64,000 bases of DNA from contig NZ_KZ119600.1 in assembly GCF_002153425.1 (NCBI RefSeq), positions 2,717,920 through 2,781,919 on the forward strand, given 5' to 3'. Source of the stretch: Litchfieldia alkalitelluris (GTDB taxonomy: Bacteria; Bacillota; Bacilli; Bacillales; Salisediminibacteriaceae). This document shows, one piece after another, positions 5,410 to 9,301 of the stretch. Numbering within the stretch: the stretch's first letter is position 1; every line of letters starts with the position of its first letter. Under the pieces are notes generated by a model. That model saw only the letters and a list, made by a program, of their open reading frames with translations, was not told the DNA's origin and searched no databases. The position numbers and the translations under genes were made by a program.

Positions 5410-7397
5410 TTATTTTAAATCTAATGGCAAATCTTCAGGCTCATCTGCATCAGCAGCTGGAACCGTAATCGGTTCATTTAATCCATGATACTCACGAATT
5501 TTTGCTTCAATAGCACTTGTAATATCATTATTTTCTTTTAAAAACTGCTTTGCATTTTCCCTACCTTGACCTAAACGCTCTTCATTATAGGAATACCAAG
5601 CACCACTCTTTTGAACGATATCTAAATCTGATCCAATATCCAAGATGGATCCTTCTCGAGATATTCCTTCTCCATACATGATATCCACTTCAGCAGTTTT
5701 AAATGGAGGTGCTACTTTATTTTTAACAACTTTAATTCTTGTTTTATTACCAACCATGTCATTTCCTTGCTTCAATGTTTCTGCTCGACGAACTTCTAAT
5801 CTAACAGAAGAGTAGAACTTTAATGCACGACCCAATTTGTTATCCTATCGGCTTTTTATCCGATAGCTCTTACCCTTTCTTTCGAGTAAGTTCAGCATAC
5901 ATTTTCACCTTCGCACGATACGTTAAGGTGGCGGAGACTCGTGGGGATATTTTTGCTATCATAGCGCTCAATCCCTATGCGTTACACAGACTATTGATCA
6001 TAGCCCGCTCGATATTAGCATCTCAGCCTTCATCGAATTTCCCCGCTCATAATCTAGATGGTTTCTCACCTAGACGGCAGTGTGATTAATAAATACTACC
6101 AGGTGTCGTTTCAGGATTCAGTTGTGTTAACACAAGAGTTTTTTATCTCTTGTTTCTGGAGGTTGTATTCCCTCATATCCTAATACTAGGATTACGATCA
6201 GTCATTTCTGATCCAGCTCAGCATATCTTTTCATCTTCGACATAACTCGTTAAGATGATGCGGCCTCTTGGAAGGATTATATTCTGTAATAATATACAGT
6301 TTCACCTTCTATGCGTTGCCCCTGACTATCATTTTACTTATAGCCTTCGGTTCGGATTTGCATCTCAGCATCCCCGGCTAATTCCGCATTCATAATCTAG
6401 AAAATTTCTTTTCTAGACGGCAAAGTGCTTGTCTTAAGCAACTCTATCACCAAACATAACTCCAACTTTTTCGCGAATCTGGTTAATAAATACTGCGATT
6501 GTTTTTGATTTATTGATTGCACCAGAAAGTTTTCTTAGTGCTTGTGACATAAGTCGGGCTTGAAGACCAACGTGGCTGTCTCCCATTTCCCCTTCAATCT
6601 CAGCTTTCGGTACAAGTGCTGCCACAGAGTCAATAACAATCATATCTACAGCGCCACTTCGTACTAATGCTTCAGCTATTTCTAGGGCTTGTTCTCCAGT
6701 ATCTGGTTGAGATAAGAGTAATTCATCAATATTTACTCCTAAGTTTTGTGCATATACTGGATCGAGGGCATGTTCAGCGTCTATGAAAGCCGCTTGTCCA
6801 CCATTTCGCTGAATTTCAGCGATGGCGTGTAATGCTACAGTTGTTTTACCAGAAGATTCGGGCAGGATTGTTATACACAAGGCTTTTTATCCTTGCTTCT
6901 GGAGGTCACCCTCATCACCATTACGCTCTGGAAACATAATGGCTACAGTTGGTTATTTCCAACTCAGCTCAGCGTACATTTTCACCCTCAGCATGATCTG
7001 TTAGGGTAGGGACACTCTTGCCAGGATTATATTCTATTAACGGTTAATAGGTTCACCTGGTACGCGTTACGGTGTTACGACTTTTTAGTTTCGCAATTAC
7101 CTCGGAATTGTCTCAAGTGAGAGGTTTTCCGATTTTGCCCCTTTCCTCTTACCAGTTTCCCAGTAAGCGGGCGATCCGTCTCTTAACTTTTGTTAAGAAT
7201 TATTCACCATAGATTTCAATGATTCTTCCTTTAGGATATCCTCCTACACCTAATGCAATATCTACTGCTAACGCTCCAGTTGATACAGTAGAAACTCGTT
7301 GTTCCGCCTGTTCTCCAAGTTTCATAATGGAGCCTTTACCAAACTGTTTCTCGATCTGACGTAAAGCCATATCAAGTGCTTGTTTACGATCTGACAT
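5410..7397 (-). CDS. recA: RecA recombinase, four exons split by three group I introns: join(7397-7206, 6862-6449, 6118-6098, 5832-5410)
   Basis: DNA-dependent ATPase for homologous strand exchange and co-protease for LexA. The open frames stop just inside each intervening sequence. Removing 6863-7205, 6119-6448 and 5833-6097 gives one frame of 349 codons (64+138+7+140), against about 348 in B. subtilis RecA. All junctions are phase 0. The rebuilt protein has Walker A GPESSGKT across the first junction, the motif [14 protein letters not shown] at the end of exon 2, loop L2 GNPETTPGG across the micro-exon, and an acidic C-terminus. I chose ATG 7397 over the in-frame TTG 7403 because AAGGAG lies nine bases before the ATG but only three before the TTG. 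Own promoter and LexA box upstream, own terminator downstream. The exon map is exact from sequence; splicing itself is inferred. Confidence 0.95.
5833..6097 (-). ncRNA. Group I intron 3 of recA (265 nt, ORF-less)
   Basis: It begins after CCTGGT and ends ...AAATTG before GGTCGTGCA, joining Pro-Gly to Gly-Arg-Ala. P1 pairs exon/intron UGGU|AGU with ACUGCCG (6081-6075), with the U.G wobble at the splice site. The same ACU can pair with the 3' exon GGU as P10. P3 is GCGGGG/CUCCGC. P7 is GCATA (5980-5976) with TATGC (5899-5895). P8 is CACCTT/AAGGTG. P7.1/P7.2-like hairpins lie between P7 and P3', suggesting subgroup IA. The last hairpin has the loop GATAAAAA found in all three introns. It is the shortest copy and lacks the extra P9 hairpins. 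No endonuclease ORF. Confidence 0.9.
6098..6118 (-). CDS. recA: recA exon 3: 21-nt micro-exon encoding NPETTPG
   Basis: Seven codons, AAT CCT GAA ACG ACA CCT GGT, stranded between introns 2 and 3. They supply exactly the residues missing between exon 2 (…VMFG) and exon 4 (GRALKFYSS…). These are the core of DNA-binding loop L2, one of the most conserved parts of RecA. Both flanking junctions are phase 0, so loss of this exon would keep the frame. Without it neither neighbouring exon can be joined to give a normal RecA. Confidence 0.93.
6119..6448 (-). ncRNA. Group I intron 2 of recA (330 nt, ORF-less)
   Basis: It starts after TTTGGT and ends …CAACTG before AATCCTG. P1 pairs exon/intron UGGU|GA with UUGCCG and is extended by a TGCTT/AAGCA hairpin. 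P3 is ATGCGG (6389-6384) with CCGCAT (6263-6258). P7 is GCATA in AACGCATAG (about 6316-6308) with TATGC (6225-6221). P8 is CATCTT/AAGATG. Several P9-region hairpins follow, the last with loop GATAAAAA. Its 5' part (GCCGTCTAG … CTAGATTATGA … GCGG … GCTGAGATGC) closely resembles intron 3, suggesting common origin. Readthrough of exon 2 stops after four codons (DRVA). No ORF of note. Confidence 0.9.
6863..7205 (-). ncRNA. Group I intron 1 of recA (343 nt, ORF-less)
   Basis: It starts after ATCTATGGT and ends …AATCCTG before CCCGAATCT, so it interrupts Walker A between Gly and Pro. P1 pairs GGU|GA with UCGCC, again with U.G at the splice site, and is capped by a CTTAAC/GTTAAG hairpin. P3 is AGGGGC/GUCCCU. 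P7 is GCGTAC (7065-7060) with GTACGC (6977-6972), a compensatory change relative to GCATA/TATGC in introns 2 and 3. P8 is TACCCT/AGGGTG (closing A-U aside). CCAGG…CCTGG forms the P7.1-like stem. The terminal hairpin keeps the GATAAAAA loop. Group I introns in recA are known from the Bacillus cereus group. Confidence 0.9.
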
Positions 7398-7475: not shown

Positions 7476-7489
7476 CAAACATTCGTTCC
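7476..7489 (-). promoter_or_regulatory. LexA (DinR) operator of recA
   Basis: The minus strand reads GGAACGAATGTTTG, matching the Gram-positive SOS box CGAACRNRYGTTYG at 13 of 14 positions (first base differs). It ends eight bp upstream of the recA -35, so LexA bound here could block RNA polymerase. This agrees with the known LexA control of recA in Bacillus. Confidence 0.85.
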
Positions 7490-7717: not shown

Positions 7718-9301
7718 TTATTTTCTTTTCGGTCTCGGTTTCGCTGGTTCTAAATTTATTCGTGCACCATTGACTCTTGAGTACTTTAACCCTTCGTACA
7801 CAAATGGCGCTACTTCCTGTGGAACTTCCATAAAAGTAAAGTTCTCAAATATATCTATTCTACCTACTGCATTTACTGGGATTCCAACTAAATGAGCAAC
7901 CTCTTCTGATAGTATTTTCGGCGTTAAATCAACGTTTCGTCCAACATTAATAAAAAACCTTGTCATCCCTTTTTGTGCTCCAGTATCACCGAAATCATAT
8001 CCATCATCTTTCAGATCATCCTGGCTATAAAAAGCAAGCTTCATCAAAGACGTAATCACTTTTTCTGGTGGATAATGCTCTAGTAAATCAGCAACCAGTG
8101 GATCATATAAGCTTTCCATGTCATCATCACTTTCAATTAGGTCAATGATTTGTCCTTTCCAGACATGCTGCTGCTTTTCAACAACTTCTTCTACAGACGG
8201 CAATTTTTCCGAAGGTATATTCATTTTGATCTCAGCTTCAATAGATCTCAAATGCTTCATTTCGCGAGGCGTGACAAGCGTTACTGCAATCCCTTCACGT
8301 CCAGCACGTCCAGTTCTTCCTATGCGGTGTACATAACTCTCAGGGTCCTGCGGAATATCATAGTTTATAACATGGGAGACATTTTCCACATCGATTCCCC
8401 TTGCAGCTACATCTGTTGCAATAAGAAACTCTATAGATGAATCCCTAAATTTTTTCATAACAATATCCCTTTGTGATTGTGTTAAATCACCGTGAAGACC
8501 ATCAGCCATATACCCTCTTGCTTGTAAAGCTTCTGTTAATTCTGCAACACCTTTTTTTGTACGACAGAAAATAATGCCTAATTCGATTGTCTCACTGTCA
8601 ATGACACGGCATAAGGAATCCAACTTATTTTTTTCTAGTACTTTATAATAGACTTGGTTAATTGATGGTGCCGTTACTTCTCCTTTACTAATTGTCACCT
8701 GTTTTGGACGGTTCATGTATTTATTAGACAATTTACGTATTGGAGGAGGCATCGTTGCTGAAAACAAAAGTGTCTGGCGTTCGCTATTGACTTGTTGAAG
8801 AATCTTTTCAATATCCTCAATAAAGCCCATATCAAGCATTTCGTCTGCTTCATCCAAAATTAAAGTGTGAACATTTCTTAATTGAAGCGTCTTTCTGTTT
8901 AAGTGGTCCAAAATTCTACCTGGAGTACCTACTACGACTTGAGTGCCTCGTTTTAATGCTTTAATTTGATGGCCAATAGACTGACCACCATAAATTGGAA
9001 GAATATGAACATTTTTGTACTTAGACAGCTTTTGAAGCTCACCGGCCACTTGAATTGCCAATTCCCTTGTTGGAGTTAATATAAGGGATTGTACATTGCG
9101 ATCCTTCGTTACGTGTTCAAGAAGGGGAATACCGAAAGCAGCTGTTTTACCAGTACCTGTTTGCGCTTGTCCTATAACGTCTTGTTTTTTTAAAATCTCT
9201 GGGATAACTTTTTCTTGAATAGGCGATGGCGCTTCAAAGCCCATGTCCTTAATTGCTTTTTTTATATCATCAGAGATTTGAAATTCTTCAAATTTCATCA
9301 T
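7718..9301 (-). CDS. DEAD-box RNA helicase with C-terminal DbpA-type RNA-binding domain
   Basis: ATP-dependent RNA helicase, 527 residues. Visible motifs: Q motif GFEAPSPIQEKVIP, motif I AQTGTGKTAAFG, Ia TPTRELAIQ, GG, TPGRILDHL, DEAD, SAT in LLFSATMP, motif IV IIFCRTKKG, TDVAARGIDV, and VI HRIGRTGRAGREG. The last ~80 residues (from MTRFFINVGRNVDLTPKIL) look like the DbpA RNA-binding domain, which in DbpA/YxiN directs the enzyme to structured rRNA; the tail KPRPKRK is basic. Its ATG overlaps the cinA stop (ATGA), so the two are probably co-translated. In B. subtilis cinA and recA are adjacent, so this gene is an insertion in the synteny. It could be a CshA/DeaD- or DbpA-type enzyme; I leave the symbol open. 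Confidence 0.95.
   Translation of the reverse strand: MMKFEEFQISDDIKKAIKDMGFEAPSPIQEKVIPEILKKQDVIGQAQTGTGKTAAFGIPLLEHVTKDRNVQSLILTPTRELAIQVAGELQKLSKYKNVHILPIYGGQSIGHQIKALKRGTQVVVGTPGRILDHLNRKTLQLRNVHTLILDEADEMLDMGFIEDIEKILQQVNSERQTLLFSATMPPPIRKLSNKYMNRPKQVTISKGEVTAPSINQVYYKVLEKNKLDSLCRVIDSETIELGIIFCRTKKGVAELTEALQARGYMADGLHGDLTQSQRDIVMKKFRDSSIEFLIATDVAARGIDVENVSHVINYDIPQDPESYVHRIGRTGRAGREGIAVTLVTPREMKHLRSIEAEIKMNIPSEKLPSVEEVVEKQQHVWKGQIIDLIESDDDMESLYDPLVADLLEHYPPEKVITSLMKLAFYSQDDLKDDGYDFGDTGAQKGMTRFFINVGRNVDLTPKILSEEVAHLVGIPVNAVGRIDIFENFTFMEVPQEVAPFVYEGLKYSRVNGARINLEPAKPRPKRK

Follow-up and report, generated by a model that had tools for sequence, protein, structure and literature searches.

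The window analysed here is a stretch of 64,000 nucleotides from Litchfieldia alkalitelluris, whose genome is labelled G000. It carries recA on the minus strand, at 7397-5410, as four coding pieces of 64, 138, 7 and 140 codons, which are separated by three inserts, I1 (343 nt, 7205-6863), I2 (330 nt, 6448-6119) and I3 (265 nt, 6097-5833). A GGT codon precedes each insert, and the last base of each is G. A sequence-only reading of the window had described the four pieces, the insert lengths, the phase-0 sites and the TGGT before and G at the end of every insert, and had taken the inserts for group I introns; all of the descriptive points were reproduced. The gene is laid out as follows, where R1 is a covariance model described below.

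7477..7488, minus strand: LexA-box-like GAACGAATGTTT, 91 nt before the recA ATG
7206..7397, minus strand: recA exon 1, residues 1-64, ending in IIEIYG / TGGT
6863..7205, minus strand: intron I1, 343 nt, predicted group I (IA-like), between G64 and P65; R1 core 7147-6962, 146 bits
6449..6862, minus strand: recA exon 2, residues 65-202
6119..6448, minus strand: intron I2, 330 nt, predicted group I (IA-like); R1 core 6393-6211, 187 bits
6098..6118, minus strand: recA exon 3, a 21-nt micro-exon, residues 203-209, NPETTPG
5833..6097, minus strand: intron I3, 265 nt, predicted group I (IA-like); R1 core 6050-5885, 159 bits
5410..5832, minus strand: recA exon 4, residues 210-349 and the stop

The insertion point of I1, G64/P65, lies at what we take to be the RecA Walker A motif, and the exon 3 peptide NPETTPG is presumably the core of L2, a DNA-binding loop of RecA. 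We judged GAACGAATGTTT to be LexA-like by comparison with the consensus of that box.

With the inserts removed, translation of the joined pieces gives an open RecA frame of 349 residues, as had been claimed. In six congeneric genomes recA is unsplit, and the joined protein aligns with it over residues 1-349; the lengths agree in two of the six and fall short by 1-2 residues in the other four. In all six, the exons on either side of each of the three junctions meet with no base lost or gained. Each junction position is unique, since the last exon base (T) differs from the last intron base (G) and the first intron base differs from the first base of the 3' exon. A second recA, which the sequence-only reading had named as a point that would count against it, was sought in the same genome and not found; PF00154 gave four matches, namely three of the recA pieces and one below cut-off. 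Because the sole detected copy is split by three introns, all three splicings are probably required for a working RecA.

The gene is split in three of nine congeneric genomes, G000, G004 and G008, and the other six have open frames of 355-391 aa. I1, I2 and I3 occupy the same sites in G004 as in G000; G008 has I2 and I3 only, again at the same sites, with exons 1 and 2 uninterrupted. The split recA is thus not an error of one assembly. That it is real is confirmed by this recurrence together with the likeness of the inserts to one another (mean column identity 69 %) and their folding, which is far better than that of shuffled sequences (z of -5.99 for I1, -4.55 for I2 and -4.47 for I3). At the family level recA is split in 3 of 35 genomes, the others being open over 346-416 aa. 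Across the class a recA match was obtained in 397 of 398 genomes and, among the matches listed, all but G000 are open over at least 342 aa. Eighty named recA loci among the matches listed each gave a single tblastn match (80/80; that of L049, near a contig end, begins at residue 28), and a search for R1 introns in the same 80 loci found none.

Upstream of recA, at window positions 7718-9301, lies a DEAD-box helicase with a DbpA RNA-binding domain. We considered it as a possible splicing chaperone and rejected the idea, as it is adjacent in nine of nine congeneric genomes, six of which have an unsplit recA. It is also upstream in 2 of 22 named intronless loci scanned. Its presence beside unsplit recA indicates that it is not tied to the introns.

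A search with the Rfam group I covariance model, which had been proposed as a check on the introns, went against expectation: RF00028 gave no match to I1, I2 or I3 at E values up to 10. The same model does pick up three ordinary group I introns at other places in G000. Among RF00028 introns in G000, one lies by eye in an RNR-like gene (L006), and L005 and L007 have them at two places close to a transposase-like ORF, within remnants of genes for which flagellin is our guess. A covariance model, R1, was made from eight rows, comprising I1-I3, the I2 and I3 of G004 and G008, and an nrdE intron of G004 minus its ORF. In G000, R1 finds three places at E <= 1e-4, and these are all three recA introns. 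At the same threshold it gives 106 matches, seed introns counted, in 96 sources that were preselected for known presence of the R1 family; the matches are in phage, nrdE and other loci. Of the 398 genomes sampled from the class, 27 carry the family, G000 among them, and it is present in 63 viral (IMG/VR) stretches as found by one exact sequence pattern.

The P3, P7 and P8 strands are complementary in all three window introns. The strands of P3 and P7 are placed as follows.

7136..7141, minus strand: I1 P3 5' strand GGGGCA, partner UGUCCC at 7014-7009
7061..7067, minus strand: I1 P7 5' strand ACGCGUA with bulged C, partner UACGCUG at 6976-6970
6384..6389, minus strand: I2 P3 5' strand AUGCGG, partner CCGCAU at 6263-6258
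6310..6316, minus strand: I2 P7 5' strand ACGCAUA, partner UAUGCUG at 6225-6219
6040..6046, minus strand: I3 P3 5' strand GCGGGGA, partner UCUCCGC at 5937-5931
5976..5982, minus strand: I3 P7 5' strand ACGCAUA, partner UAUGCUG at 5899-5893

Covariation was scanned in 91 distinct rows of the R1 family. The strongest covarying column pairs are located in P7.1, P8, P5, P6 and P7, and no P3 pair is among the 70 strongest. In the fitted alignment 93.3 % of cells pair, with a covariation score of 0.500 from an alignment that had been fitted to that same structure, compared with 0.141 when shuffled and at most 0.082 when slid. P7 reads A-(C)-G-C-A-U-A against U-A-U-G-C-U with a bulged C, that is, GCAUA/UAUGC in place of GACUA/UAGUC. 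Beyond the bulge, 78 of 89 rows have an A-U pair and 9 of 89 a G-C pair, and beside it 86 of 90 rows have G-C and 3 of 90 G-U; a G-C pair in P7 next to a bulged base is the guanosine site of group I introns. In P7 98.0 % and in P8 97.5 % of cells are paired, with changes on both sides. P3, which crosses P7, is absent from the model behind the alignment, and we examined it by a partner test. The mean best stem is 5.87 bp with the intron's own partner versus 4.07 +/- 0.09 with permuted partners (top of 300 permutations, 4.27), and a stem of at least 5 bp forms in 76 of 91 rows versus 37 % of swapped pairs. In aligned columns P3 is paired in 65-88 % of rows, where single slid pairs reach 85 %. 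P4 has four pairs at 68-96 %, and two further pairs that were tried fail (25 and 33 %). The core has the P4-P6 domain of group I, with P5 and P6 covarying, and a P3/P7 pseudoknot with P8 between. One hairpin, P7.1, with 97.8 % of cells paired, lies between the P7 5' strand and the P3 3' strand, which is where subgroup IA introns carry their extra pairing or pairings.

Twenty relatives were also scanned with RF00028. A match at the R1 place was obtained in two, both over the cut-off of 50 bits, L099 (R1 68.4 bits, RF00028 73.7 bits) and L124 (R1 62.8 bits, RF00028 70.6 bits), and these double matches tie the R1 family to group I. It is very unlikely that the inserts are a separate class of self-splicing ribozyme, resembling group I in outline only. 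Such a class would fit the lack of an RF00028 match to I1-I3 and at the R1 place of 18 of the 20 relatives, and also the difference of the R1 P7 from the GACUA/UAGUC of the genome's own RF00028 introns. However, the double matches include both forms of P7, GACUA/UAGUC in L124 and GCAUA/UAUGC, as in I2 and I3, in L099, and the P7 bulge with its G-C pair, the P3 partner test and the position of P7.1 argue for group I. Known introns of phage T4, in td and nrdB, also score below the RF00028 cut-off (40.3 and 35.7 bits), so the miss of I1-I3 is a limit of one library model and not a defining trait. In the excerpts of PMC11878797 the Rfam group I model is described as incomplete and subgroup IA2 as heterogeneous. 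R1 itself, with filters off, did not match T4 td or nrdB, and it gave no match to the three RF00028 introns of G000. Taken together, the covariation in P5, P6, P7, P7.1 and P8, the P3 test, the P7 bulge with its kept G-C pair, the double matches and homology to introns of AR9 gyrA and phiR1-37 support the group I identity that had been read from the sequence, and point to a lineage of phage type that RF00028 does not see in I1-I3.

A further RF00028 intron lies elsewhere within 3 kb in 8 others of the 20 loci; the match in L121 falls short of the cut-off, and the remaining seven exceed it. Several of these eight (L109, L112, L113, L115, L117, L119, L121 and L123) seem, by position, to be two intron lineages in one RNR gene. 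It is therefore not rare for a bacterial gene or locus to hold more than one group I intron.

Putative internal guide sequences lie upstream of the R1 core in each window intron.

7167..7172, minus strand: I1 putative internal guide GCCCGC; GCC pairs with GGU of exon 1, only 3 bp
6416..6421, minus strand: I2 putative internal guide GCCGUC; GCCG pairs with UGGU of exon 2
6073..6078, minus strand: I3 putative internal guide GCCGUC, letters identical to the I2 guide; GCCG pairs with UGGU of exon 3

The 5' exon ends in U and the intron in G in nine of nine introns (three in the window and six in kin), and the putative P1 has the splice-site U-G and two G-C pairs in 9/9 introns examined. This P1 is 4 bp long in I2 and I3 and 3 bp in I1, and reaches 7/8 in the nrdE intron; the putative P10 has 2 bp in I2, 3 bp in both I3 and the nrdE intron, and 3-4 bp with a spacer in I1. 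The nrdE exon motif was found upstream of R1 matches in 15 loci, and GCCTCACG is the guide in 14 of them. Exon 2 begins with CCC in G000 and with CCT in G004, and opposite this codon the I1 guide has A in place of G, one compensatory change as judged by eye. An in-frame stop occurs at codon 2-9 in all nine introns, and at codons 2, 5 and 4 in those of the window. Early in-frame stops in introns are viewed as aiding splicing in the excerpts of PMC3984707.

We put at about 0.93 the probability, judged from sequence, that the inserts are self-splicing, phage-type, IA-like group I introns that are spliced out to give an mRNA for the 349-residue RecA, and that they entered the gene at least twice. 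The splicing, its order and its chemistry, as we infer them, would run as follows. Each insert would fold into a P3/P7-pseudoknotted ribozyme, with its 5' splice site at the U of TGGT and its 3' splice site at the terminal G, and two guanosine-initiated transesterifications would remove each intron from the recA transcript to leave the 349-residue RecA mRNA. The stop that lies 2-5 codons into each window intron may bar ribosomes from the ribozyme.

An alternative is that splicing has been lost, so that recA would be a pseudogene or yield fragments. The short P1 helices would be consistent with such loss, but we consider it highly improbable, as the exons are under strong purifying selection. 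Over the first 315 codons, dN is 0.033 and dS 1.72 (near saturation) for G000 against G004, 0.027 and 1.77 (near saturation) for G000 against G008, and 0.014 and 0.76 for G004 against G008, giving dN/dS of 0.015-0.019 in three pairs, two of which have saturated dS. The genome has no other recA, the LexA-like box is present in the window, and the complementary P3, P7 and P8 strands are kept in I1, I2 and I3, all of which speak against dead introns. Programmed ribosome bypassing, of which T4 gene 60 and the mitochondrial byp elements are examples, or some other skip at the level of translation, is scarcely credible. A GGT codon does end all three 5' exons, and exon 4 starts with a GGT that could serve as landing codon for I3, but neither I1 nor I2 has a GGT at its 3' end, landing on the exon 4 GGT would lose one residue, and both structure and kinship mark the inserts as group I. 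An intein reading was rejected because the inserts are not open in frame with the exons, given their early stops.

We return to the group I introns and their origin. The sequence-only reading had held that none carries an endonuclease ORF, which is true of the window introns, with no ORF of at least 50 aa inside them on the recA strand, but not of their kin, as I2 of G004 contains an ORF of 301 aa. Searched against PDB to E 0.01, this ORF has a single match, 3r3p, titled 'mobile intron protein' (E 0.0078) and taken by us to be I-Bth0305I, and the ORF is Vsr-like below the Pfam cut-off. By eye the 3' end of the reading continues in another frame, so the ORF may be decaying. The nrdE intron of G004 has an ORF of 338 aa (L091:535-1551), located by eye in the P8 loop, for which no Pfam match was found at E 0.01. 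ORFs similar to it were seen by eye in L114 and L115.

Ten ORFs beside R1 introns of other genomes were scanned with Pfam; five are RNR, two are phage tail tape-measure, and SNF2, amidase and HNH account for one each. A recA match was sought in 28 R1 loci from other genomes of the class and found in none. R1 scores the topoisomerase II intron of phage phiR1-37 at 119.1 bits and the introns of phage AR9 gyrA, a gene annotated as a three-piece CDS, at 85.4 and 78.9 bits. In a FastTree tree the row nearest to I1 is L153 (support 0.82), which adjoins an ORF taken by eye for a terminase. Multiplication of one intron within recA was rejected, in that a single clade of the eight recA introns has an AU p of 3.4e-5 on a quick, weakly resolved tree (15 of 86 inner branches starred). 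Pair clades were not rejected (I1+I3 p 0.516, I2+I3 p 0.159, I1+I2 p 0.096), the pairs having been chosen after sight of the first tree. Rejection of the eight-intron clade but not of the pairs suggests at least two entries into recA, the probable donors being mobile introns in phage or nrdE genes, and entry could have been by endonuclease homing or by reverse splicing.

Phage recA was rejected as donor, as R1 introns are present in none of 80 phage recA loci (80 kept of 556). Five of the 80 (L231, L232, L233, L238 and L253; IMG/VR) have long stop-free in-frame inserts with intein-like borders, as judged by eye; four sit 2-3 codons downstream of the I1 site and one at the I2 site. Those of L231 and L232 read alike, and that of L233 was placed by the same tblastn split. 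Intein-like inserts so near the I1 and I2 sites suggest that the Walker A and L2 regions of RecA attract both kinds of element. In two viral introns, L171 and L180, an I2-like core is combined with an I3-like 3' part (82 % and 89 % identity), as though introns exchanged parts by recombination. An apparent exon mimic, a likeness between the opening 15 nt of I3 and part of exon 2, we take as chance since I3 starts differently in G004 and G008.

I2 and I3 have identical guide letters (GCCGUC) and an identical target (UGGU) on either side of the 21-nt exon 3. With guide and target in common, the 5' site of I2 could join the 3' site of I3. It is possible, though we hold it only tentatively and think it improbable on balance, that such joining yields an in-frame RecA without the L2 loop, and that competition between the ribozymes sets RecA output, perhaps with a dominant-negative form. 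If true, this would be alternative splicing in a bacterial DNA-repair gene. Since the micro-exon lies between two ribozymes of similar specificity, RT-PCR offers a direct test of exon skipping in a cellular gene. More generally, a recA that needs three ribozyme splicings would be a natural test of how far group I introns are tolerated in bacterial mRNA, and the R1 lineage marks a blind spot, being present in the class and in viruses, yet seen by the Rfam model in only 2 of 20 scanned places.

A group I intron is known from recA of the Bacillus cereus group (Ko, Choi and Park 2002; Tourasse and Kolsto 2008; both named in the excerpts of PMC3984707, where it is reported to be similar to phage introns). 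Compared by gene and intron class as far as those excerpts go, it shares with I1-I3 a group I intron in a recA of Bacillaceae, but the recA of the window has three introns, unlike that of the B. cereus group. In the titles and abstract openings of open-licence literature we found no report of several introns in one recA. The earlier description of the arrangement as unusual is fair for recA but not for genes at large, since the excerpted sources record three group I introns per gene in phages (Twort orf142 and Bastillevirinae).

The introns of AR9 gyrA and phiR1-37 topoisomerase II are R1 family members like I1-I3; their hosts are phage genes, and in phiR1-37 an endonuclease gene adjoins. By eye the group IA introns of T4 td and nrdB arrange P7 in the same way, A-(C)-G facing U, and likewise have an insertion separating P7 from P3; they differ from the R1 family in having P7 GACUA/UAGUC and in being unmatched by R1. 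For Bastillevirinae, the excerpts of PMC11878797 give group I introns matched mostly by IA-like models, with up to three per gene; they were found with RF00028 and GISSD models, whereas I1-I3 are unmatched by RF00028. The same excerpts report exon skipping for 47.2 % of the transcripts of the SIOphi polymerase gene. A parallel in layout is Twort orf142 (Landthaler and Shub 1999, as recounted in the excerpts of PMC10136302), which has three group I introns and a 23-nt exon between introns 2 and 3, an exon between similar introns that is kept or skipped, as seen by RT-PCR. The likeness lies in three group I introns in one gene and a very short exon, 23 nt against 21 nt in recA. As far as the excerpts tell, orf142 differs in being a phage gene, whereas recA is a cellular DNA-repair gene, and skipping of the 21-nt recA exon would preserve the frame.
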